In this document: piece after piece, positions 135-35,833 of the stretch
Layout of the letters: each line of letters opens with the position of its first letter
Position numbering within the stretch: position 1 is the first letter of the stretch
Assembly: GCA_027459705.1 (NCBI GenBank)
Contig: DAIDHM010000199.1
Location: 1-48,726, forward strand
Reading direction: 5' to 3'
DNA from: Ktedonobacteria bacterium
GTDB lineage: Bacteria > Chloroflexota > Ktedonobacteria > Ktedonobacterales > JACDGC01
DNA length: 48,726 bases
Translations under genes and position numbers: made by a program
The notes under the pieces: generated by a model
The model's input: only the letters and a program-made list of their open reading frames with translations
The model's database searches: none
What the model was told of the DNA's origin: nothing

Positions 135-2849
135 CTACGCGGCATCCAGGATGTCGCGTTCGCCTGCGGACTCTGCGCTGATGATTCCTTGTTCGAACAA
201 AATGCGCGCGAAGTGTTCGACGATGTTTTCGTCCATTTTGCCTGTCTGCACTTCGCGCCGCAACATCATCAGACCCTCCATGGCGGTACGTCCGGGATGA
301 TATGGGCGTTCCGCCGTGAATGCCTCGAAGACATCGGCGACCGCCAGGACGCGCACCAGCAGGGGGATGGCATTGCCGCTCAAACCGTCTGGGTAGCCTG
401 AGCCATCCAGTCGCTCGTGGTGCCACCGCACCAGGGGGAGCAGGTGCCGCAACTGTTCCATGCGTCCCACGATTGCCTCGCCCATCGTCGTATGGGCACG
501 CATGGCAATCCACTCCTCATCTGTCAATTTCCCGGGTTTGCGCAATACATTATCTGGCACACCGATCTTGCCGACATCGTGCACATAGCCACCTAATCGC
601 AGGGTCTCTACCTGTTCCGTAGAGAGATGCATCGCGCGGGCAATCGCGACGGCATAGCGTGAGACGCCTTCTGAATGGGCGGCGGTGTAACCATCACGCA
701 GATCGATAGCGGCAACCAGCGCCTGCACCGCCTCCAGATCCGCCCCAGTGGGTAGGGTCACCTCGCTCTCCATCTGGGCAGTGTTGGCCGAGAAGAGTGG
801 CATCGTCTCTTCCAGCAACATCGTATTGTACCCGACTGCCAGATTGCGTCCGGCGCGTTTGGCGGTATGCAGCGCCAACTCAGCCGCTTTTACCAGTGAA
901 GATCCCGCCGAAGCGTGGATGGGAAAGACCGCATAGCCGACAGAGACCGTCAGCATGGTCGTATCTGGCTCGGCGTCTTCGCTGGTAGTCACCTCAAAAT
1001 ACTCCTGCGCGACCGCCTGCAAGATTAACTGTGACAACTCGGCGGCGCGTTCCATGCCCATGGTGGGTAGGATAATCGCGAACTCTTCCCCACCATAGCG
1101 CGCGGCAAACTCACCATCACGTACCATGTGGCGGATGCAATCCGCGACCATACGCAAGGCACGATCCCCATTTTGATGACCATAGTGAGCGTTAAAATAG
1201 CGGAATTCATCGATATCGACTGTAACGAGCGCCAGTGGGAGGTTCGCCGCAGTGCAGGTTGCCACCTGGTGATGCAGCATGTCCTGGAAGGCGCGGTGAT
1301 TATGCAGACCAGTTAATGGGTCCAGGTACGTCATTTGCCGGGCTTCCTCATAGAGCACCGTCCGTTGGAGCGCGCCGACGATCTCTTCGGCGATCGACGC
1401 GAGAAAATCTGGAACAATCGGGTCGAGCAATTGGGATGGTTCATAGCAGCAGACCAGCGCTCCCCAGATCTTCTCATCCCGGCACAGCGGAACCGTCGAT
1501 AAATGAAACTCTTCGGCCTCAAGGATGGGAGCATCAAAAGATGCCACACCTGTCGCTATGGTCCTCAGTGCCGTAGAGTTCGCCACTGGCGAGATAGGAT
1601 TGGTGGTGACGCGTTGATGATGTTGCTCGCGTACGACCTCCGGAAAGGTATCAGTGAAGTGATGTCCGGAGATACGGGCATACCCTTCCCGTTCATGGTC
1701 CAGCATGACGATTATCGCCCCGCCGAGATGCAATTTGTCCACTAACAGGCGCAGAACATCCGTAGTGATACTCAACTCAGTGGCGCCTAACGCGCAGATA
1801 TGGGCGACGGCCCGCAAAATTTCAAGATGTTGCTGGTGTTGCGTCTGGCGCGTGATATCACGAATGGTCAGGATGGCGCCCTGAATGGTCCCATCCGCCG
1901 CAGGTAGCGGCGCCGTTCGCATCGAATAAATGACCATCTTCTGTTGCGGAAAATAGCACCGCACCGTGGTCGGGCTGTGGGTGCTCACCCCCTTGAGGGT
2001 TTGCGCGATCGGATATTCCTCAGGGTTTATCACGTGCCCGTGCATATCGGTCATCCGAACTGGTTGTTGAGTGGACTGCCGCGCACCTTCCAGATCCTTA
2101 CCCAGATATTCACGTCCAGCACGATTGATATAGCGTAGTTCGCCCTGCGCGTCGAAAATCATCAGCGATTCCAGCATGGTATCCATCACTAGATGGAGCT
2201 CTTGACGGGTCGCCTCGCTCTCTTGCAGCAACGCTGCAAGCTGTTGGTTAAGCGCACTGAGTTCCTCCGTACGATCTGCGGCACGCAATGCGCGTTGAAA
2301 TCCACGCAAACCCAGCGCGATGGCGCACGTCATGTAGAGGAGTGGGGCGATATATCCGCGACTCTGGTCCAGCAACGGGAGCGGCGCCAGCGAACTGTGC
2401 ATTTGCAGGGTGATCAGCAGGAGGCCAGTGCCAAATGCTGCGACTGCGAAGCATGTTCTGGCACCAAAGACAGTCCCTGCCGTGACGATCGGAAAGGCCA
2501 TGGCCGTAACTTGAGCGAGCACCATTATTGGCGTCAACGTCGAGATGGTGTTGAAGCTGATCATCAGCATAGCGACAATGATACAGAGCCAGGCCGCCAG
2601 GCGAACATGCTGCCAGCGGCTCAATACGATAATGACCCCCACCATGGCCAGGGTCCCGATCAATGAAATGGCCGCGCTGGCAACCGAACGCACGCTCAAA
2701 ATCACGATGGGCACACCGAGTAACGCCATCATGATGAGAAAATGGGCGATGCGCCGATTCTGCAAGTCCTCGAGTTTACCCTGAGTTCCCTGGGGACAGA
2801 GCCAACGATCCCAGCTGCTGGTGAGATTGGCGATCTGAATTTGCAACAC
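135..2849 (-). CDS. Membrane-bound PAS-GAF-GGDEF-HD-GYP c-di-GMP enzyme
   Basis: A bifunctional signalling protein of about 904 residues that probably both makes and degrades cyclic di-GMP. The N-terminal ~180 residues hold about six hydrophobic helices, followed by a short coiled coil, a PAS domain (about 215-335), a GAF domain (about 345-495), GGDEF (about 505-680) and HD-GYP (about 700-890). The cyclase motif is intact (RYGGEEF, near 584-590). The HD-GYP motifs are also intact: HDVGKIGVPD, HHERLDGSGYP and ERPY. The inhibitory-site position upstream of GGEEF reads RDGE instead of RxxD, so product inhibition may be weakened. I chose GTG at 2849 because AGAGGA lies 5 bases before it; an in-frame ATG at 2879 has no such site. 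The gene stands alone, with its end facing the partial gene at 1-128. Whether both activities work at once cannot be judged from sequence. Confidence 0.93.
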   Translation of the reverse strand: MLQIQIANLTSSWDRWLCPQGTQGKLEDLQNRRIAHFLIMMALLGVPIVILSVRSVASAAISLIGTLAMVGVIIVLSRWQHVRLAAWLCIIVAMLMISFNTISTLTPIMVLAQVTAMAFPIVTAGTVFGARTCFAVAAFGTGLLLITLQMHSSLAPLPLLDQSRGYIAPLLYMTCAIALGLRGFQRALRAADRTEELSALNQQLAALLQESEATRQELHLVMDTMLESLMIFDAQGELRYINRAGREYLGKDLEGARQSTQQPVRMTDMHGHVINPEEYPIAQTLKGVSTHSPTTVRCYFPQQKMVIYSMRTAPLPAADGTIQGAILTIRDITRQTQHQQHLEILRAVAHICALGATELSITTDVLRLLVDKLHLGGAIIVMLDHEREGYARISGHHFTDTFPEVVREQHHQRVTTNPISPVANSTALRTIATGVASFDAPILEAEEFHLSTVPLCRDEKIWGALVCCYEPSQLLDPIVPDFLASIAEEIVGALQRTVLYEEARQMTYLDPLTGLHNHRAFQDMLHHQVATCTAANLPLALVTVDIDEFRYFNAHYGHQNGDRALRMVADCIRHMVRDGEFAARYGGEEFAIILPTMGMERAAELSQLILQAVAQEYFEVTTSEDAEPDTTMLTVSVGYAVFPIHASAGSSLVKAAELALHTAKRAGRNLAVGYNTMLLEETMPLFSANTAQMESEVTLPTGADLEAVQALVAAIDLRDGYTAAHSEGVSRYAVAIARAMHLSTEQVETLRLGGYVHDVGKIGVPDNVLRKPGKLTDEEWIAMRAHTTMGEAIVGRMEQLRHLLPLVRWHHERLDGSGYPDGLSGNAIPLLVRVLAVADVFEAFTAERPYHPGRTAMEGLMMLRREVQTGKMDENIVEHFARILFEQGIISAESAGERDILDAA

Positions 2850-3052
2850 GGTTATCCTCTCGCGCCTTGCTCTTACCATGCCCTATCGACAAACCGACCG
2901 TCATGCAATAGATGGCTGGCCAACGATGTGGCTATAATTGCCTCACCAACGGACAAAATCCGCGTGGGAAATTTGGTGCAATGTGCTGGAATGGCGAGGG
3001 CAAGGGCGTGGATTGCGGCGCGAGGGCGAATAGCAACCTCCTGAAGAGCAAC

Positions 3053-4471
3053 TCAGTCCTGATCCTCGGTATGTCCCCCATAACGGCGTTGCAACCACCG
3101 GGCGATACTGGTTTCTGCCCCCATTGGTGTCGCACCGGGATCGTAGTACCGGTGTTCGCGCACGCTCGTGGGGAGATAGCCTCCCGGCTGTACATTCGCG
3201 GGCCAGGGACGTGTGGCGTCCGCTGGATCGCCGCCAGTGGTCGCATAGACCTCGTGCGCATAAACATAACCCTGGCCATAATCCAGATCGCGCATCAGGC
3301 GCGTCGGCGCATTGCGCAGATAGGTGGGAACGGGATCGTTGCGGGTGGCGCGGATGTCGGCCACCGCGGCCATATAGGCCCGCTCCAGCGCATTGGATTT
3401 TGGCGCGCAGGCGAGGTACACCACTGCCTGCGTCAGAGCTAACGCGCCTTCTGGCATGCCAACAAAATGCACCGCCTGTTGCGCGGCCATCGCGATGACC
3501 AATCCCTGAGGATCCGCCAGGCCAATATCCTCGCTGGCCATGCGCACCACCCGCCGCGCGATATAGAGCGGATCTTCCCCGCCTTCCAGCATGCGCGCTA
3601 ACCAATAGATGGCGCCATCGGGGTCAGAGCCGCGTACGGATTTGTGCAGCGCTGAAATAAGATTATAGTGTTCCTCACCCACGCGATCGTAGAGCAGAGT
3701 CCGCTGCTGGAGGGCATCGTCCAGCACGGCCAGCGTGATATGCGGGTGACCATCCTCGACTGGGGCCACCTGTGCCGCCAGTTCCAGTGCGGTCAGGGCC
3801 ATGCGCGCGTCGCCATTGGCGAAGGTGGCTAACGCCGCCAATGCGTCCTCATCCATGGCGATTGCCAGCTCGCCCAGTCCTCGCTCGCTATCCGCCAGCG
3901 CGCGCTGGATGATGTCTGTTATCGCCGCATCACTCAGCGCGTGCAGGGTGAAAACGCGACAGCGTGAGAGGAGCGCCGAATTGACCTCGAAGCTCGGATT
4001 CTCTGTCGTCGCCCCGATCAACGTCAGCGTCCCACGTTCCACATGCGGCAAAAGACTATCTTGCTGGCTTTTATTGAAACGGTGGATCTCGTCCAGAAAG
4101 AGGATGGTGCGTTGCCCCCCACGGCGACGTCTCTCCGCTTCGTCCACCACGCGTCGCAGGTCGGCAACACCAGCGGTCACGGCGCTGAGTGCGACAAAAT
4201 ACGCGCGCGTCGTCCGCGCGATCACTTCCGCGATCGTTGTCTTGCCACTACCGGGCGGACCCCAGAAGATCATGGAGACGACCTTGTCCATCTCCACACT
4301 TCGCCGCACGGCGTGGCCTGGCCCCAGGATATGATCCTGCCCGACGATCTCATCCAGGGTCTGGGGGCGCATCCGCGCGGCAAGTGGCGCACGCGCATCC
4401 CTTGCGATAGGCGTCGCCACGGGCTCAGGTGTGGTGAAAAGCGAACCCTGGTTGGGGGATTGATCTGGCAT
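3053..4471 (-). CDS. rarA: Replication-associated recombination protein A (RarA/MgsA AAA+ ATPase)
   Basis: An AAA+ ATPase of the RarA/MgsA/WRNIP1 family that acts at stalled replication forks and single-strand/double-strand junctions. Walker A is GPPGSGKTT (residues 71-79), Walker B is LFLDE followed by IHRFNKSQQD (from about 124), and sensor 1 lies in IGATTENPSFEVNSALLSRC, which ends with the arginine finger. The C-terminal half has the usual oligomerisation region (LARMLEGGEDPLYIARR, then the YLRNAPT stretch). Length 472 residues is slightly long, with a variable N-terminal tail. The start is ATG 4471, since GAGGA lies 7 bases upstream; ATG 4477 abuts that site and is too close. The frame is open further upstream to 4567 but has no ribosome site there. 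Single gene, about 180 bases from the next gene upstream. Confidence 0.95.
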   Translation of the reverse strand: MPDQSPNQGSLFTTPEPVATPIARDARAPLAARMRPQTLDEIVGQDHILGPGHAVRRSVEMDKVVSMIFWGPPGSGKTTIAEVIARTTRAYFVALSAVTAGVADLRRVVDEAERRRRGGQRTILFLDEIHRFNKSQQDSLLPHVERGTLTLIGATTENPSFEVNSALLSRCRVFTLHALSDAAITDIIQRALADSERGLGELAIAMDEDALAALATFANGDARMALTALELAAQVAPVEDGHPHITLAVLDDALQQRTLLYDRVGEEHYNLISALHKSVRGSDPDGAIYWLARMLEGGEDPLYIARRVVRMASEDIGLADPQGLVIAMAAQQAVHFVGMPEGALALTQAVVYLACAPKSNALERAYMAAVADIRATRNDPVPTYLRNAPTRLMRDLDYGQGYVYAHEVYATTGGDPADATRPWPANVQPGGYLPTSVREHRYYDPGATPMGAETSIARWLQRRYGGHTEDQD

Positions 4472-4648
4472 TGTCATTTCCTCGATCCGAACGCAAAGCG
4501 TGCGGGAGCCAACTGGACGCGCCAGCCGACTCCCGAATGATTCTGGGCACCACATGGCTACGCTCACCCACCTGCATTTTCCTCACAGAACCTGGCAGGG
4601 TGACAACACGCGCCCGCGCCAACGCACCGTGGCAATGGGTGATTTGAC

Positions 4649-5923
4649 TCAGTCTTCGACCGCATCCGGATAACCAAGCGCGATTCGCACTGGATGACCA
4701 GGGGTGGTTACCGACTCAAACTGCAGATCCGTGCCAGCGTGTGCGGCGGCGGACACCGCGTCACGATGTTCATTGAAGAACGCGCGCAACGCGACCAGGA
4801 CGTTGTGGACGACCGCAACTTCGTCTGGCTCCAGGGTCAACATCTCCAGTTCTTCATCGCCCGTGTAGAAGCTTGGAACGACTTGCTCTTCTGGACCGCG
4901 CAGGCCAAATTCCGCCACCCATTCCAGATAGCCTGGGGTGACCTCGCCCGTTGCGTCAAAGGAGCATACCAGCGCCTCGTTCATGAGGGCCGCCAGTTGT
5001 TCACCATGTGCGGCATTCGCATGGCGGATGAACTCCATCAATTGACTTGGCTCCAGCATCGCGACCGGGACACCATTCTCTTCCAGTTGGCTGATCGCAT
5101 CTGTCAAATCGCTGTCGCTCATGGAATTGATCTGTTCGACATACGCGCGTGCTTCCAGCAGCGTCTCCAGCGAATCGTAGATGAAGACGGCGAAATTCAT
5201 GCCGGTCTCGCCCGTGAGGTCAACGTACAGCGGCAGGGCATTGTCGAGCTCGACGGTCAGATATGGTCCGTGCAGATGGTATGTCCAGGGATGCTCGGCA
5301 TAGAGCGCATTGGCCGCCCCAAAGAGGTCTTTGGCTATCTGAGGGTCGATTTCCCACTCAAACGGCGCCTCGTCATCATCATCGTCGTCAGCCTCTGCCT
5401 CGCTATCGTCATCAGCGAACCCTATAGCTGCCAGCATCGCTTCGAAGGCCTCGTCCATCAATGGCAAAGATTCCGCAACTTCGACCTGGGGAGTCACTGC
5501 GGCTAACTCTTTTCGCAACGCCACCGCGAGCTCGGGATCATCCACGATAAACTTCCCAGGCAACCAGGGCGATGTTGGTGCGGGGATCCCATCTGGCAAT
5601 AATCCCTCATAGTCATCAAACGCTTCCTCGGCGGGCTCGAGCAAGCCATTGATAAGCGACTGGATGACCGTATGATAACCCTGATCTTCGAAATCTGTCG
5701 GATCATAGATCACCATGTCTTTGGTTTCCCCGGTATGCGCGTCGATCCAGAGGGCGATAGCTGGGACGTACGTTTCCTCATCCACCTCTACCTCATCCTC
5801 CAATTGTCGGAGGGTTCCCATCAAGACGCGTTGCGGTTGGCGAGGCGCTTTCGCCAACCGTTGCAGTGGCGAGGCGGCCGGCGAGGCGGATTTTTTTGAG
5901 GATGGCTGCGATTTTTTCGCCAT
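4649..5923 (-). CDS. Acidic protein of unknown function (DUF6930-like N-terminal part)
   Basis: A soluble protein of 424 residues with no signal peptide or membrane segment. It opens with a Lys/Ser/Ala-rich tail (MAKKSQPSSKKSASPAA), then a domain beginning RVLMGTLRQLEDEVEVDEETYVP that reminds me of DUF6930, recalled from memory. A very acidic stretch (EADDDDDDEAP, near residue 195) separates it from the rest. The second half is also acidic and has no motif I know. The start ATG 5923 is preceded by AAGGAAG with 8-base spacing; the longer frame to 5974 lacks a ribosome site. It is transcribed alone from the extended -10 at 5977-5985. Function is unknown. Confidence 0.8.
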   Translation of the reverse strand: MAKKSQPSSKKSASPAASPLQRLAKAPRQPQRVLMGTLRQLEDEVEVDEETYVPAIALWIDAHTGETKDMVIYDPTDFEDQGYHTVIQSLINGLLEPAEEAFDDYEGLLPDGIPAPTSPWLPGKFIVDDPELAVALRKELAAVTPQVEVAESLPLMDEAFEAMLAAIGFADDDSEAEADDDDDDEAPFEWEIDPQIAKDLFGAANALYAEHPWTYHLHGPYLTVELDNALPLYVDLTGETGMNFAVFIYDSLETLLEARAYVEQINSMSDSDLTDAISQLEENGVPVAMLEPSQLMEFIRHANAAHGEQLAALMNEALVCSFDATGEVTPGYLEWVAEFGLRGPEEQVVPSFYTGDEELEMLTLEPDEVAVVHNVLVALRAFFNEHRDAVSAAAHAGTDLQFESVTTPGHPVRIALGYPDAVED

Positions 5924-23030: not shown

Positions 23031-23314
23031 TCATATCTGATCAGCATGGCGCGGTGTCTCAGCGATGGGCCACACAGCATGATCGGTCAGTTGATTGCGG
23101 CACGGCCGAGTAGCCGCGTCTGGCTGGTGAGCGATGCCAGTGCTGCATTGATTGGTGGCCATATCAGCACCAACATAGAGATGATTGATCAGCATTATGA
23201 TCGCACTTCCACATCATGCAGTGGGCTGCATCACTCCCATTTTTGTCAGCAATCGTGTATACTTCCCACAGTCTGCATACACACCCGGCTCATATAGCAT
23301 CATTGGGGGGTCAC
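23031..23314. other. Gap between tRNA-Arg terminator and NACHT gene
   Basis: About 280 bases with no convincing gene. I looked for a repeat of the tRNA 3' end, as would flank an integrated element, and found none by eye. A TATACT at 23258-23263 is the best -10 candidate for the NACHT gene but lacks a good -35. A small palindrome, ATGCA-GTGGGC-TGCAT, lies at 23217-23232. Confidence 0.35.
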
Positions 23315-25963
23315 ATGGCAGGAAAGGGAGATCAGGAGCCCCGCGAACCCGTGATTTGGCAAGCGCTGCGCTGGCTACTGCTCGCCTGGTGGATTGCGCT
23401 GCTTTCATTGCTTGGGAACATCGCGTACAATGTCGCGATTGCCTTCATTCAAGGTGGCCCAACGGCTGCCCAGGCCCAACTCTCCTGGGGCTATCTCGCG
23501 CACATCGAACAAGCAAATCCCTCCCTCTTCCTGGGAGTTTTTGTGCTCCTTACCAGCGTTTCGGTTCTCGGTGCGGGCCTGTCCATACAGGAATGGCAGA
23601 AAGAACAACGTGCGAAGCGAACCCGTGAAACTGAACATCAAGACTTGAAAAAGCGGGTTGGTATCCTTGAGAGCGATCCCGACCAATATGACCCACAGGT
23701 GGAGCGAGCAAAGTATATTGAAGGTATGCGGGCGGTATTTCAAGGGATCACCCTCCCAATCGATCCAGGCGATGAATTGCGTCTGGCGGCGATCTATCAA
23801 CCCTTGCAGTTGGTGAGCGATCCCCTGGTGGCAGACCAGTTGCGCCGCGAGGATCGGCGCATATTTGAAGATGAGGCCGAGATCCGACGCGCCGCTGAAC
23901 GACTGCGGAGGGAACGCGAGACCCCCAGTGGACAAGACGCATCGGCAGACGAGGCAACGCTACGGCCGGTGCCACGGAGTGAGCCACCCAAACAGGCGAC
24001 GAATATCGCTGATGCCCTGCGCCAGAGTGGCCAGCGTCGCATCATTGTGCTGGGCAATCCCGGCACCGGGAAAACCACCACCTTGCGCCAGACCATCGAA
24101 GATGCCCTCGCCCACCTCGATGCACCGGATGCGCCGTTACCCATCTTTATCGCGCTGCCTGATCTCGCCCGAGCTAAAAAGATTGATCAGTTGGCGGAAT
24201 ATATGGCGGTGGTGGCCGAGAAATACTCGGCAAAACCAGCCTTCGGCAAAGATCTCTGGGCGGCGGTCATCAGCGGTCAGGCCCTGGTGTGTTTGGATGG
24301 CCTGGATGAGGTGCCCAAAGAGGATCGACAGGCGCTCATTGATCGGATCAATAACGACGCGCGGGTGTATGGCGGAACCTGGGTGATTGGCTCGCGCTTC
24401 AGCGAGTATCAAGGCAAGCAATTTGCTCCTGGCCAGTTCGCTGAGTGGGAGTTGAAGCCCCTCGCTCCTGAACAACAGGATCAATTGGCGCAGGCATTAT
24501 TACGCGAATTGCATCGTTTCATCGATGGCCCGCAGGGCACCACCGTACCGCGTCTCAATGCGCAACTGCTCTTGAAGAAGCTGGCAGCGACGCCGCAGAC
24601 AGCCGCCTGGCGGGCAAACCCGCTCTTACTGAGCCTGGCGGCGTATGTCTTCGTGAAACAAGGTGGTTCTCTGCCAGAGACACGCACGACCCTGTACACG
24701 ATCCTGATCGATGGCATCCTTGAGGCGCATATCGAGCGTGGCACGAAGTGGCCCTTTGCCTATGGACTGCTGACGATCCGTGAGGCGTTGGCAGAAGTCG
24801 CCGTGCGGCTGTTTGCGGCCGGGGGGCGCACCTTTGATCTCGCCGATCTCATGACGCACTTGCGTGCCAGCCGCCAGGCGCTGGATGCCAACTGGCACCG
24901 TGGCGATGAGGCGATGGCGCTGGACCTCATACATTGCGGATTGCTGGACGAGGTGGCGAAGGAGACGTATGGGTTCCGCCATCTGACCTTCCAGGAATTT
25001 TTGGTGGCCCGTGGCCTGGCGGCGGGCATGGTGGCCGATGCGCCCAGGCAGACGCGAGCCTGGGAACTGAGTCGTAGCCATCGGACCCATAGTCGGTGGA
25101 ATGAGGCGTTACGGCTCCTGGTTGGAGTATTGGCGGAAATGGGCAAACCGCCAGCCACACAGGCACTCCAGCGTTGGTTCCAGGAGTTACTCGCGCTCCA
25201 GCAAGCCAACGATGATCCAGGGCTGTTGCATCTGGGCTTGGCGATTCGTTCAATGAATGAACTCTCGTCGCTCACGATGCACACCCTGGGGCTTGCAACG
25301 GCGGCCGTGGATGTCTGGAGCACGGCGATCATCGACGCTGCTGGACGCGAACGGAGCACCCTGTTGCAACGCCTTATCAGCCTGGGACCCGAAATTGCGC
25401 GGTTCGACCCGCAGTACACACAGGGGGCAATCGAATCGTTCGTGGTGGCCCTGGAGGATGGAAACTGGCAGATTCGTCAGGCGGCGGCGCAAGCGTTGGG
25501 GCAACTGGGGGAGCGCATGCCAGTCGACGCCCTGCTCGGTGCCCTGGGCGATGACTACGCCAATGTTCGAGCAGCGGCGGCGCAAGCGTTGGGGCGACGT
25601 ACTCCCAATCCAGTAGAGAAGGTCCGGGATGAGGGGATTGCGGTCTTGCTGGATCACAGGTCTGGGACGATTTTCGGTGCGATTGTCCAACGTGAGTTTG
25701 CTGAAGTGTTGGGCAATATGCGTCAAGCTTCTGCTATCTCGACCCTGGCGACGCTTTTGGAGTGGCCATACTGGTCAGTACAGGCGTCGGCGGCGCGTTC
25801 CCTGGGCAAGATTCGTCGGATTGTTATTTCACCTAAATCTGCCGAGATCATCGAGCGGTTGCAACATTTGCGCCATGTCGCCTATTCACAGGTGGTCAAT
25901 GATGCGGCGGACGATGCGCTAGCGGAAATCCTTACCCTGGATGAAAACGTGCCCGAAGAATAA
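23315..25963 (+). CDS. Membrane-anchored NACHT NTPase with C-terminal HEAT repeats
   Basis: A STAND-class NTPase of 882 residues. The N-terminus carries two hydrophobic segments (about 13-45 and 69-90) with a basic coiled-coil-like stretch after them (EWQKEQRAKRTRETEHQDLKK), so the ATPase should hang on the cytoplasmic side. The NACHT core has Walker A GNPGTGKTT (247-255) and the NACHT-type Walker B LVCLDGLDEVP (324-334). Helical and winged-helix regions follow, including FRHLTFQEFLVARGL, a motif typical of bacterial NACHT proteins. The last ~150 residues hold HEAT/PBS-lyase repeats (IRQAAAQALGQLG, VRAAAAQALGRR). Start ATG 23315 follows a GGGGGG tract; an earlier in-frame ATG exists at 23216. 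Bacterial NACHT proteins include anti-phage sensors, but many in Chloroflexota have no assigned role. It lies alone between a tRNA and an insertion-sequence end. Confidence 0.9.
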   Translation: MAGKGDQEPREPVIWQALRWLLLAWWIALLSLLGNIAYNVAIAFIQGGPTAAQAQLSWGYLAHIEQANPSLFLGVFVLLTSVSVLGAGLSIQEWQKEQRAKRTRETEHQDLKKRVGILESDPDQYDPQVERAKYIEGMRAVFQGITLPIDPGDELRLAAIYQPLQLVSDPLVADQLRREDRRIFEDEAEIRRAAERLRRERETPSGQDASADEATLRPVPRSEPPKQATNIADALRQSGQRRIIVLGNPGTGKTTTLRQTIEDALAHLDAPDAPLPIFIALPDLARAKKIDQLAEYMAVVAEKYSAKPAFGKDLWAAVISGQALVCLDGLDEVPKEDRQALIDRINNDARVYGGTWVIGSRFSEYQGKQFAPGQFAEWELKPLAPEQQDQLAQALLRELHRFIDGPQGTTVPRLNAQLLLKKLAATPQTAAWRANPLLLSLAAYVFVKQGGSLPETRTTLYTILIDGILEAHIERGTKWPFAYGLLTIREALAEVAVRLFAAGGRTFDLADLMTHLRASRQALDANWHRGDEAMALDLIHCGLLDEVAKETYGFRHLTFQEFLVARGLAAGMVADAPRQTRAWELSRSHRTHSRWNEALRLLVGVLAEMGKPPATQALQRWFQELLALQQANDDPGLLHLGLAIRSMNELSSLTMHTLGLATAAVDVWSTAIIDAAGRERSTLLQRLISLGPEIARFDPQYTQGAIESFVVALEDGNWQIRQAAAQALGQLGERMPVDALLGALGDDYANVRAAAAQALGRRTPNPVEKVRDEGIAVLLDHRSGTIFGAIVQREFAEVLGNMRQASAISTLATLLEWPYWSVQASAARSLGKIRRIVISPKSAEIIERLQHLRHVAYSQVVNDAADDALAEILTLDENVPEE

Positions 25964-31912: not shown

Positions 31913-32584
31913 ATGGCAATGAACTTCGATGAATCCCCCTCGCGCCGCCTCCCTGTCTATCTTTTACTGGATACCTCTGGTTCGATGGCAGGCGCGCCAA
32001 TCGTCGCCGTCAACAATGGGGTCGGGTTGCTCTATCGCGAGCTGTTGAATAACCCCAGCTCGGTCGAAACCGTCTGGATGTCGGTGATTACCTTCGCGGC
32101 GGACGCGAAACGCCAACCCCTGACTGAGTTGACCCATTTTACCCCACCGGTCCTGACGGCTGGCGGTCCAACGGCGATGGGCGCCGCGCTCAAAGAATTG
32201 GGACGGGCCCTGGATACCGAGATTATTCCGAATGTGCCAGGCGGCGACCGCAAGGGCGATTATAAGCCGTTGGCCTTCCTGCTGACGGATGGGGTGCCCA
32301 CCGACGAGTGGCAGACTGCCGCCGAGGCGTTGAAGAAGCGCACAGTAGGGCGTCTGGGCACTTTCGTCGCCCTGGGTTGTGGCGATGAGGTGAAAGTCGA
32401 TGTCCTCAAAGCCATCACGGATAAGGTCTTGCTGATGCGCGATGTGCAGGGTGATACGTTACAAGAATTCTTCCGGTGGGTCTCGGCATCGATCAAGCAA
32501 GCCAGTATCGCGGCCCCCCGCACCGGTACCGGTGAATCGTTGACGATGATGCCGCCGCCGCCACCTACCATCGAGACCATCTGA
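31913..32584 (+). CDS. TerY-like von Willebrand factor A domain protein
   Basis: A 223-residue cytoplasmic protein that is essentially one vWA domain. The metal-ion-dependent adhesion site is complete: DTSGSM (20-25), the Thr of GGPTAMG (87), and the Asp of LLTDG (123-127), so it should bind a divalent metal and a partner protein. It ends in a flexible MMPPPPPTIETI tail. Proteins of this type (TerY) occur in three-gene sets with a PP2C phosphatase and a kinase, which is exactly the arrangement here. ATG 31913 follows AAGGA with good spacing; the upstream frame to 31826 lacks a ribosome site. The next gene starts 142 bases on, or 4 bases on if GTG 32589 is used. Confidence 0.92.
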   Translation: MAMNFDESPSRRLPVYLLLDTSGSMAGAPIVAVNNGVGLLYRELLNNPSSVETVWMSVITFAADAKRQPLTELTHFTPPVLTAGGPTAMGAALKELGRALDTEIIPNVPGGDRKGDYKPLAFLLTDGVPTDEWQTAAEALKKRTVGRLGTFVALGCGDEVKVDVLKAITDKVLLMRDVQGDTLQEFFRWVSASIKQASIAAPRTGTGESLTMMPPPPPTIETI

Positions 32585-32632
32585 TGCAGTGTCCGCGCGC
32601 GATCACGCGCCAGTTGGCACCGGACAAATCGC

Positions 32633-32704
32633 GGCACCGGACCACCCGGCGGCACCGGACCACCCGGCGGCACCGAGCCACCCGGCGGCACCGAGCCACT
32701 CGGT
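32633..32704. repeat. Four 18-bp tandem repeats between vWA and PP2C genes
   Basis: Units at 32633, 32651, 32669 and 32687. The first two read GGCACCGGACCACCCGGC; the third has A-G for G-A at two positions and the fourth ends CTCGGT. Read on the opposite strand the units encode the VPPGGP-type hexapeptide that begins the kinase (34297-34350), with 15 of 18 bases shared between best units. In the PP2C frame they would encode an HPAAPD/HPAAPS repeat. The repeat therefore sits in opposite orientation to its relative across the PP2C gene. Confidence 0.85.
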
Positions 32705-32726
32705 TGTGCTGCCCAGGGAGAAAGTG

Positions 32727-34277
32727 ATGACCCCTCGCCGTTCCGCGCTACTCTTCGTGCTCGACGCGACCGGTGGAAGCGGCGTGGTGTATCGTGTCGC
32801 CGTCTATCTGCAGCATCTCGTGCGGCAGTTGCGGACGACGGCTGGGCTGACGCGCCGGGCGCGCATCGAGGTATTGATTGCGGATCATACCTCGGCGCAG
32901 ATCGTCACGATCGACGATCTGCTGACCATGGCGGCCAGTGTCGCTTTTGACGCCGCGCCCTTTGGCCTGCACCCCAACACCATCACCGCCATGGTGCAGA
33001 CGATGCCCTATGAGGGCGGCGGCTTTCATGTCTTCTTTCTGCTGACGCGCGACCTCGCCGCCAATTGGGAAGCCGAATTGCCCGCTTTGCACCAGATGGT
33101 GGCGTCCGTGACCGGGCTGTGCTGTGGACCGCTGGCCCCACCCGCCACAGCCACACGGCTCAGCAAGGAACCCGGCGGCACCCGTGTGGTCAATCCGCTC
33201 GACCGCATCCGCATCCAGTTTGACTCAATTGCCGCCTGGCTCAGTCGCGATTTCGGCGATCCACCGGTCGCGCCACCCTTACCGGACGTTGTGCCCGTCC
33301 CTACGGGGTGGTCCGGTGGCGCTGAGTTGCCTGGCGCCGCGCCGACGCCACCCGCGCCAATGCACCCGAGGCCCGCGACACATCCAACGGCGCAATGGCG
33401 GATCCTGGAGCCGACCGATCGTACGGATTCGGTCCCACATAGCGAGCATACGCACCAACCTGGAAGCGCTGGCTGGAGCATGATCGCCGCCAGCCGTCGC
33501 GGCAAACTCCACGCGCACGAGGGAACCTACCGTGATGACGCTTACGCGCTGGGCAGCGCGGATGGTTGGAATTTCATCGCTGTGGCTGATGGCGCTGGTT
33601 CGTGCCGCCTCTCGCGGGTCGGCGCGCATATCGCCACCACGGCCGCCATTGCGGCGCTGCAAGCCGCCGCCACCGCGATGGCCGTGCAGGTGGCCCTGGC
33701 TTCCGACGCGCCCGGTTTCCCCATCCCACGCCACCATGCTCAGGGCCTCGAAGTCATCCAGCAGCACCTTGCGCACTCGCTCCATGCCGCGCAACGTGCC
33801 GTCGAGGCCGAGGCGCGGCGGCGAGCAATCCCCGTCCGCGATCTTTCGTCCACGCTCCTGGTACTGGCCCATTATCCCACCGCTCACGGCGATCAGGTCC
33901 TGGCCGGCGGACAGATCGGTGCTGGGCAGATCCTGCTGGTGGAGAACGACCACCAGTTTCGTCCGCTCGGCGAGGCGAATGTAGGATTTTATTCCGGTGA
34001 GACGATCTTTGTGCCGATGCCTTCGTCCAGCGAACTGGAGCGCTGTGTTTGGGCGACCTGGCTCCCGACGCCGTGGTTGGTGCTCGTGATGACCGATGGC
34101 ATCGCTGATGATCTGTATCCACCCGCGCGGCAAGTGCCGGTCCTCATCCAGGGGATCACCGGGGTACTACGCGCACATCCGGCCGATCAACATCTGCTGG
34201 ATCTGATCGCTTATGAGAAACGTGATTCAGCGGATGATCGTACGCTTGCGGTGCTCTATCGACCGGAGGTCATGTAA
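32727..34277 (+). CDS. PP2C-type protein phosphatase with degenerate vWA-like N-terminal domain
   Basis: A two-part protein of 516 residues. The C-terminal half (about 250-515) is a PP2C Ser/Thr phosphatase: the metal-binding Asps appear in YRDDAY (268-273), VADGAGS (286-292), VMTDGIADD and DDRTLAV. The N-terminal ~135 residues look like a vWA fold that has lost its metal site: ALLFVLDATGGSG resembles the DxSxS strand-loop, and FHVFFLLTRD resembles the LLTDG strand. A Pro-rich linker (135-250) joins them. It should reverse the action of the kinase encoded next. ATG 32727 follows AGGGAG; the open frame continues upstream through the 18-bp repeats to GTG 32589, just after the vWA stop, so a longer form is possible. 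It overlaps the kinase gene by one base (TAATG). Confidence 0.88.
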   Translation: MTPRRSALLFVLDATGGSGVVYRVAVYLQHLVRQLRTTAGLTRRARIEVLIADHTSAQIVTIDDLLTMAASVAFDAAPFGLHPNTITAMVQTMPYEGGGFHVFFLLTRDLAANWEAELPALHQMVASVTGLCCGPLAPPATATRLSKEPGGTRVVNPLDRIRIQFDSIAAWLSRDFGDPPVAPPLPDVVPVPTGWSGGAELPGAAPTPPAPMHPRPATHPTAQWRILEPTDRTDSVPHSEHTHQPGSAGWSMIAASRRGKLHAHEGTYRDDAYALGSADGWNFIAVADGAGSCRLSRVGAHIATTAAIAALQAAATAMAVQVALASDAPGFPIPRHHAQGLEVIQQHLAHSLHAAQRAVEAEARRRAIPVRDLSSTLLVLAHYPTAHGDQVLAGGQIGAGQILLVENDHQFRPLGEANVGFYSGETIFVPMPSSSELERCVWATWLPTPWLVLVMTDGIADDLYPPARQVPVLIQGITGVLRAHPADQHLLDLIAYEKRDSADDRTLAVLYRPEVM

Positions 34278-35833
34278 TGGCTAAACGACCAGGTAACCCG
34301 GTACCACCGGGTGGCCAAGTACCGCCAGGTGGCCCTGTCCCGCCAGGTGGCCAGGCGCGTGGCAATGCTCCGCCGCACCCGGTGGCCGCACCGCCGGTTC
34401 CGCCACCGCTCCGCGTGGTGACGAGCGACAACCAGGTCATTCCCTGCCGACCGGAGCCCTTCAATTCAGGATCGGAAGGGCGATTATATTTCACGTTGGA
34501 TGGCACACGCGTCGTCAAGATCTACTCCAGTCCGGAGCCCTGGCGTCAGGCCAGCCTGGAAGCTATCATCCGGAAAAGAACGCAGGTGATGGCCGATAAT
34601 CAAGCGTATTGGTCGGCTTACTACTGCTGGCCGGAAGCACGTATCGCGCAACCCGGCCTGGGGTTGGTGATGCGCCGCGCGTCAACCGATCTGCGTCCGC
34701 TCTCGCATCTCCTCTCCCCCCGCTTCCGCGCACGTTTGAAACGCGAACATGGACCAGAAGTGGTCGGCACCTGGATCGGCCATGTTGGCATTATGATCAA
34801 GCTGGCGCGGACGGTGAGCCGCCTGCATAATTCCGGTCTCTGCCACTCCGACCTGTCACCAAACAACCTGCTCGTAAACCCCCAGAACGGCATGTGCACA
34901 CTGATCGACTGTGACGGTCTTGTCGAAGCGGAATCCACCATCTTAATGCCGACAGTCCTCGGGACACCAGACTATATGGCGCCCGAACTCGTCAGCGGGA
35001 TCATGCCGATCCCTGGCAAACTTTCGCCACGCCCGACCGTCGAGACGGATCTCCATGCCCTGGCCGTCCTGATCTATCAAGGTCTGCTTTTCCGGCATCC
35101 TTTGCGCGGTAGGGCGATCTATTCGCCTGATCCTGACGAGGATGAGCGGCTTCTCCTGGGCGAACGCGCGCTGTACATTGAGCACCCGATTGATTCCAGC
35201 AATCGGCCGCGTACGCCCTTCCTGACTTCCGCTATTCTGGGGCCAGAGATGCAGGAACTCTGTACGCGCGCCTTTGTGGACGGCTTGCACGCCCCGCGCA
35301 AGCGACCCCTGGCAGCGGAGTGGGAGCGGGCATTGGTGCGGATGTATGACCAGACGGTGCCATGCTCAAATCCGGCCTGCGAAGCCCGTAGCTTCGTGCT
35401 GCCAGAGAGCGGTGCCGTAACCTGTCCGTGGTGCAAGGTGGAAGTGCGTGGCCCCGCGCGCATTCCCATCCTCTATTTTTATCGACTCCGTCAGGACGGT
35501 CGCCATGATTCGCGTGGGACGTATACGCTCGATTTTCGCTTCGTTGGCTGGCACACGCGCAAACTCAATCTCTGGCATATCGAACCGTATCGGATGCCCG
35601 GCCCGAACATTGACGCGACGCCTGTGGGCGAAATTATCTGGGAACCAGACTCCCGGCAAAGTCGCTGGTGGTTAGTGAACCGCACGATTGACCGCGTCAT
35701 TGACATCACGGATGATCAACACCCGGTGGTCAGCACCGCATCCCGCATAGAATTGCGCGATGGCCAGCGGTTGAAAATTGGCGATGGCAACCATAGCCGG
35801 GTCATCGAGATCCGGCTGCATCGCTTGAGTTGA
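34277..35833 (+). CDS. Ser/Thr protein kinase of the TerY-P type with C-terminal zinc ribbon
   Basis: A 518-residue kinase. It begins with a Pro/Gly repeat (VPPGGQ-type, residues 8-26) and a Pro-rich tail. The kinase domain (about 60-355) has GSEGRLY in the glycine loop, the ATP-binding Lys81 in VVKIY, the catalytic loop HSDLSPNN (190-197; HSD instead of HRD), the metal Asp in DCDG (211-214), and MAPEL (234-238). It lacks a recognisable receptor or membrane segment. A zinc ribbon follows (Cys363, Cys368, Cys383, Cys386), then a beta-rich domain of about 115 residues that I do not recognise; an FHA-like fold is possible. TAATG couples it to the phosphatase gene, with GGAGG 7 bases before its start. 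The vWA protein is a likely substrate or adaptor, by analogy with the known triads. Confidence 0.92.
   Translation: MAKRPGNPVPPGGQVPPGGPVPPGGQARGNAPPHPVAAPPVPPPLRVVTSDNQVIPCRPEPFNSGSEGRLYFTLDGTRVVKIYSSPEPWRQASLEAIIRKRTQVMADNQAYWSAYYCWPEARIAQPGLGLVMRRASTDLRPLSHLLSPRFRARLKREHGPEVVGTWIGHVGIMIKLARTVSRLHNSGLCHSDLSPNNLLVNPQNGMCTLIDCDGLVEAESTILMPTVLGTPDYMAPELVSGIMPIPGKLSPRPTVETDLHALAVLIYQGLLFRHPLRGRAIYSPDPDEDERLLLGERALYIEHPIDSSNRPRTPFLTSAILGPEMQELCTRAFVDGLHAPRKRPLAAEWERALVRMYDQTVPCSNPACEARSFVLPESGAVTCPWCKVEVRGPARIPILYFYRLRQDGRHDSRGTYTLDFRFVGWHTRKLNLWHIEPYRMPGPNIDATPVGEIIWEPDSRQSRWWLVNRTIDRVIDITDDQHPVVSTASRIELRDGQRLKIGDGNHSRVIEIRLHRLS
34297..34350 (+). repeat. Three 18-bp repeats encoding the kinase N-terminal Pro/Gly tail
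   Basis: Units at 34297, 34315 and 34333 (first unit CCCGGTACCACCGGGTGG) encode successive PVPPGGQ-type hexapeptides. They are related, in inverted orientation, to the four units at 32633-32704. Confidence 0.85.

Follow-up and report, generated by a model that had tools for sequence, protein, structure and literature searches.

The window analyzed here, a 48,726-nucleotide stretch of a Ktedonobacteria genome (assembly GCA_027459705.1, contig DAIDHM010000199.1), carries at positions 31913 to 35833 of the + strand three consecutive genes for, in this order, a von Willebrand factor A (vWA) protein, a PP2C phosphatase, and a protein kinase. By its domains, its gene order, and its homology to plasmid ter loci, the locus is a triad of the TerY-P type. 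We propose, with a probability of roughly 0.7, that it is a phosphorylation switch gated by vWA and independent of the TerD-type Ter system. The sequence basis for such a switch is an intact metal ion-dependent adhesion site (MIDAS) in the vWA protein, the full set of PP2C metal ligands, and the conventional catalytic lysine, aspartate, and asparagine in the kinase. The host genome (G000) is a 4.6-Mb draft, 95% complete, from the order Ktedonobacterales (Chloroflexota); the placement follows from another genome of its order, which agrees with Ktedonosporobacter rubrisoli at every one of 1,500 bases. The features of the locus are as follows.

31913-32584, + strand: vWA gene, stand-alone and TerY-like, 223 amino acids; complete MIDAS, homology to YegL and plasmid TerY
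32616-32703, no strand assigned: tandem array of an 18-bp repeat, about 4 copies, between the vWA and PP2C genes; matches genome-wide
32727-34277, + strand: PP2C gene, about 516 amino acids from its probable start (Shine-Dalgarno sequence and homology to G004, the nearest relative)
32733-33175, + strand: degenerate, MIDAS-dead vWA-like domain predicted at the PP2C N terminus (hhalign, topology)
33498-34202, + strand: PP2C_2 catalytic domain (Pfam, invariant metal-binding aspartates)
34275-34279, + strand: TAATG, shared by the PP2C stop codon and the kinase start codon, with GGAGGT at 34265-34270
34277-35833, + strand: TerY-P type kinase gene, 518 amino acids (homology, structure model)
34301-34353, + strand: about 3 copies of the 18-bp repeat, in opposite orientation, in the kinase 5' end (pattern search)
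34409-35341, + strand: kinase domain (GSEG loop, K81, D192, N197, D211)
35354-35440, + strand: zinc ribbon (C363/C368 and C383/C386)
35441-35830, + strand: C-terminal beta-rich domain (structure model, conserved W464 and N468)

By the definition in PMC11090510, a TerY-P triad comprises a TerY vWA protein, a PP2C, and a zinc ribbon-fused kinase. The window locus has a MIDAS-bearing vWA, an adjacent PP2C, and a kinase with a C-terminally fused zinc ribbon in the conserved order, and all three proteins exceeded the curated Pfam cut-offs (VWA, 30.8 bits against 23.8; PP2C_2, 119.9 against 24; Pkinase, 48.4 against 31.7). Residues 49 to 514 of the kinase matched the kinase of an IncHI2-type ter plasmid at about 32% identity, and 2,386 plasmid records matched the window kinase, 2,179 of them covering at least 80% of the query. 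Full-length relatives, at about 30 to 36% identity, were found in Bacteroidota, Pseudomonadota, Campylobacterota, Planctomycetota, and Desulfovibrio, and almost all of them had vWA and PP2C genes in line with the kinase gene. The vWA-PP2C-kinase order, with one to three vWA genes, recurred in relatives of the window locus and, in other phyla, at most loci with a full-length kinase, so the gene set is not a chance arrangement, and the genes were not scattered in relatives. An initial annotation, made from the window sequence without database searches, had recognized adjacent complete-MIDAS vWA, PP2C, and kinase genes of TerY-P type, and the domains, the order, and the homology to IncHI2 ter-locus proteins all agree with it. 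The homology also bears on whether the locus could be an ordinary PknB/PstP-type pair that happens to lie beside an unrelated vWA gene. An NCBIfam PknB-type model did match a short core of the kinase, at 24.7 bits with a cut-off of 450, but the full-length relatives are TerY-P kinases with a vWA gene in the row, no PASTA domain was found, and a zinc ribbon and a beta domain are present. We give this explanation almost no credence and take it as already refuted by the full-length homology.

The closest known systems differ from the window triad in several respects. The plasmid ter-locus triad (IncHI2, NZ_OQ029480.1) shares with it a TerY-type vWA, a PP2C_2 phosphatase with a long N-terminal part, a kinase followed by zinc ribbon and beta-rich domain, and the gene order. 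However, the window lacks the TerD, TerX, and TerZ genes and the ATP-grasp, PRTase, and StiP genes of the plasmid; neither a TerY_C-domain vWA nor TerX was found inside the triad locus, and its PP2C carries the degenerate vWA. Triads free of ter genes are not new, since yegL-pphC-yegI of Escherichia coli K-12 is already one: like the window set it is a chromosomal vWA, PP2C, and kinase trio without ter genes beside it and with a conventional kinase lysine. YegI, however, has 648 amino acids, is described as membrane-bound, has another C terminus and fewer ribbon cysteines, and is only 24% identical to the window kinase, and PphC matches the window PP2C weakly (E value of 0.001) and is without the extra N-terminal domain. 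Work cited in PMC13232886 is quoted there for YegI autophosphorylation and for the dephosphorylation of YegI by PphC. Sets resembling the window triad, with a kinase-zinc ribbon-beta domain protein, a PP2C, and a stand-alone vWA, have been reported in actinobacteria together with GAP1-N2 GTPase genes (PMC7159879); their nearest Chloroflexota look-alikes, likened to them by architecture (the L033/L034 type), fall in a kinase clade apart from that of the window. As to CoCoNuT systems of type II or III-A, there was no McrB-like neighbor among the window genes scanned, and no dedicated models for cnu genes were run. A distant kinase relative, with 27% identity over 67% of the query, lies on a human-gut phage contig (MT835511.1, 32677 to 33630).

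TerD was not found anywhere in the 95%-complete window genome, nor in any of the 17 sampled Chloroflexota kinase carriers (the window genome and 16 others). The ter-free state of the triad is thus lineage-wide in Chloroflexota, among the genomes sampled. Because the set persists in a lineage without TerD, the triad can be a self-sufficient unit. In the other phyla, TerD-family or Ter-biosynthesis genes occurred in the flanks of 23 of 32 tree loci, a count made by hand that covers the fetched flanks only, several of the remaining 9 loci lying on short contigs. The ter-system genes near so many sampled sister-clade loci, the near full-length homology to ter-plasmid kinases, and a single TerC-family gene in the window genome, on contig C128 apart from the triad contig, would suit a canonical Ter metal/tellurite-response system with its ter genes elsewhere in the genome, the triad being its relic or partner. 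TerC alone, however, is widespread and occurs in numerous bacteria that have no ter operon, and the window kinase stands outside the ter-associated kinases, in a clade of its own with 97% support. The lack of TerD in all 17 carriers already largely refutes such a relic, which we consider improbable. Two statements of the initial annotation should be read in this light. That the triad stands without ter genes holds for TerD throughout the genome, with one TerC-family gene present elsewhere and TerB not searched for. If it acts alone, as the annotation proposed, it would not be a singular case, given the ter-free E. coli triad and the 16 other Chloroflexota carriers.

The separation of the window kinase from its plasmid relatives was seen in a tree of 51 kinases, built with the glycine-loop columns left out. 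The window clade comprised 8 kinases (bootstrap/Shimodaira-Hasegawa-like approximate likelihood ratio test, 97/98) and the ter-associated clade 34 kinases (93/97), and a quicker tree of 53 rows recovered the same two clades. In every one of the 34 ter-associated kinases (L036-L077 and L116 rows), including the IncHI2 plasmid kinase, a lysine takes the place of the loop's third glycine (GxGxxKDVYF), and at the beta3 position these proteins have A, G, L, or C and never lysine (window positions 68 and 81 compared). In contrast to the plasmid kinase, the window kinase has the beta3 lysine, K81; a conventional glycine and beta3 lysine were found in all 8 members of the window clade, in three further kinases (L137-139), and in two YegI-type kinases. 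The eukaryotic WNK kinases, which sense chloride and osmotic state, have their catalytic lysine in the glycine loop and none at beta3, and the lysine spacing of the ter-associated kinases is the WNK spacing. Atypical lysine placement in kinases has been noted before (PMC7139507). The literature searched, which did not cover the key 2012 comparative paper, held no description of loop-lysine TerY-P kinases. The lysine relocation is an observation on the sequences of relatives, and the window kinase itself keeps the conventional design. What the window represents is a TerD-independent branch of TerY-P, so far found only in Chloroflexota. Whether the family has two kinase designs, a WNK-like loop-lysine ter branch common on conjugative plasmids and a conventional-lysine, TerD-free Chloroflexota branch, which would answer different cues on one triad chassis, seems to us an even bet.

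The vWA protein has a complete MIDAS (D20-S22-S24, T87, and D126) and ends in a PPPPP tail like that of TerY. It is 39% identical to E. coli YegL (E value of 3e-30) and 39 to 44% identical to two short plasmid TerY sequences. Two or three vWA genes at this position are frequent among relatives, as in L029, L030, and L032, and some of these genes have a degenerate MIDAS, for example DDSAAV in L032:11963-12607.

The PP2C has metal-binding aspartates D317, D334, D503, and D550, invariant across 37 aligned sequences. Its open reading frame is open from GTG 32589, and the true start is probably ATG 32727, because a strong ribosome-binding site (AGGGAGAAAG at 32715-32724) precedes it and homology to the protein of the nearest relative, G004, begins just past it. 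The domain that follows (32733-33175) matched a vWA profile over its whole length in hhalign (probability, 94%; E value, 9e-8), a negative-control comparison gave no match, and the predicted structure, of low confidence here, has beta-alpha topology. By these comparisons the PP2C N terminus is a degenerate vWA with a dead MIDAS, shared among the sequences aligned only with G004 (L026). The window thus encodes a dead vWA module on the PP2C besides the intact stand-alone one. The PP2C stop codon TAA (34275-34277) overlaps the kinase ATG (34277-34279), with GGAGGT six bases before that ATG. The TAATG overlap, already reported by the initial annotation and seen again here, suggests translational coupling of the two genes.

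The kinase model was confident (predicted local distance difference test [pLDDT], 90). The kinase domain has a GSEG loop with G65 and G68, the conventional K81, D192 within HSD, N197, and D211 within DCD. The four cysteines of its zinc ribbon, CX4C...CXXC, are invariant in the window clade and in all ter-associated kinases. About 130 residues of a beta-rich domain follow, predicted with high confidence and conserved in the ter-associated relatives, and W464 and N468 in it are invariant in the window and ter-associated clades. The domain corresponded to no recognized family in Pfam (24 members) or in a profile search of Protein Data Bank (PDB) sequences. The matches listed from a PDB fold search with the kinase were to the kinase domain, in a query from which the C-terminal domain was not isolated. 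An FHA domain at the C terminus, proposed by eye from the LRDGQRLKIG stretch, was unsupported by Pfam and the PDB sequence profile search. The initial annotation had the gene set right and the ribbon is real, but it placed the ribbon at the end of the protein and overlooked the beta-rich domain, the vWA fused to the PP2C, and the probable start at 32727.

Of 47 genomes in the order, 8 carried the kinase, as did 5 of 6 in the window's own family; HypD, tried as a divergence yardstick, had no match in the relatives. The patchy presence in the order, and the likeness of the three enzyme types, would be expected of a stand-alone antiphage TerY-P system as described by Gao et al. and in Pseudomonas aeruginosa PAO1. 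TerY-P protects against T7-like phages/Autographiviridae (PMC7699616, PMC10889362). The system of Gao et al. (2020), like the window triad, is a self-contained set of vWA, PP2C, and Ser/Thr kinase, but its kinase ends in an OB-fold (PMC11090510), and its models miss the window proteins. The PADLOC TerY model had no match to the window vWA and STK_OB reached 14 bits on the kinase, so membership in the antiphage subfamily is unsupported; the kinase is instead a near full-length homolog of ter-associated kinases. Its presence in 5 of 6 family members is unlike that of a fast-turnover island gene. Apart from a NACHT-HEAT protein, the neighbors in the window are mostly housekeeping genes, with PADLOC matches to generic helicase or protease domains, and no match to a specific PADLOC system favored a defense-island reading of the window. 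An antiphage system of this kind is thus unlikely to be what the window holds; the report of antiphage TerY-P that the initial annotation mentioned does exist (PMC7699616, PMC11090510, PMC10889362), but the window triad is not matched by its models.

The aquaporin and HtrA lipoprotein genes that the initial annotation had noted beside the triad are indeed there, and in the window they are adjacent on the same strand. An envelope-stress module coupled to them, an idea which rested on these neighbors, nevertheless seems very improbable, even more so than a Ter relic: 301 bp separate the kinase and htrA, neither gene lies beside the triad in any relative, and the best HtrA homologs of the family members are on contigs other than the triad contig. 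None of the genes flanking the triad in the window stays with it in any relative surveyed, so the aquaporin and HtrA genes offer no evident clue to function. A NACHT-HEAT repeat protein of 915 amino acids, encoded some 6 kb upstream (window 23216-25963), had only a generic PADLOC HEAT match. WD40 giants near several Chloroflexota triads (L029, L137, and L142) were not taken to be a target, being inconsistently placed, repetitive, and absent around the window triad. The L034 locus (1240 to 5898) of a 13.7-Mb relative has a different vWA-PP2C-kinase set behind a gene for a large helicase-endonuclease (MTES_1575) and is possibly a defense locus. That gene was set aside for the window, the L034 triad being in another kinase clade.

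The 18-bp repeat in the locus is a GC-rich element (GGTGCCGCCGGGTGGYCC) dispersed over the genome, often in tandem, which matched 44 times where its reversed pattern, run as a control, matched twice; it occurs on contigs C22, C39, C52, C81, C189, C226, and others. It lies near the starts of both the PP2C and kinase open reading frames, in opposite orientations, and it lengthens open reading frame calls. The array at 32616-32703 is probably untranslated, and residues 1 to 46 of the PP2C open reading frame are probably mostly this repeat read as protein. The copies at 34301-34353 encode a VPPGG tract of the kinase that is predicted to be disordered (residues 1 to 30, pLDDT below 50). In the nearest relative, the vWA-PP2C gap (L026, 7230 to 7400) also seems repeat-like, with a sequence different from that of the window.

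TerY-P triads have been associated with tellurite resistance, with restriction systems, and with defense against phages, and a stress or conflict response is most likely the role of the window triad. In the switch that we favor, the zinc ribbon/beta-rich domain would receive a cue, upon which the kinase would autophosphorylate and modify a target, either a product encoded elsewhere or one of the three triad proteins. Together with the degenerate vWA on the PP2C, the vWA protein could act as a metal-dependent adaptor joining kinase, phosphatase, and target, and the PP2C would reset the phosphorylation, by analogy with PphC and YegI in E. coli. Several observations weigh against this switch. The kinase has DCD for DFG and HSD for HRD, and kinase activity is therefore not to be assumed from sequence. 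Two relatives (G003 and G005; loci L027 and L028) have a phosphatase-kinase pair beside an exonuclease VII large-subunit gene and no stand-alone vWA at the locus, a natural two-gene version; the locus can therefore sometimes do without a stand-alone vWA. No conserved target gene lies beside the triad in the relatives' loci surveyed, and the Pfam and PDB sequence profile searches gave no recognized ligand for the C-terminal domain of the kinase.

The kind of triad is itself already known, and what is new here is a TerD-independent branch with a dead vWA fused to the phosphatase. In a TerD-free triad, the biochemistry of these proteins can be studied with no Ter machinery present. A sharper lead comes from the ter-associated sister clade and its relocated lysine. 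The lysine contrast between the two clades offers a direct experimental way into the working of the ter-plasmid kinases, and it suggests that WNK-like catalysis may also occur in bacteria.

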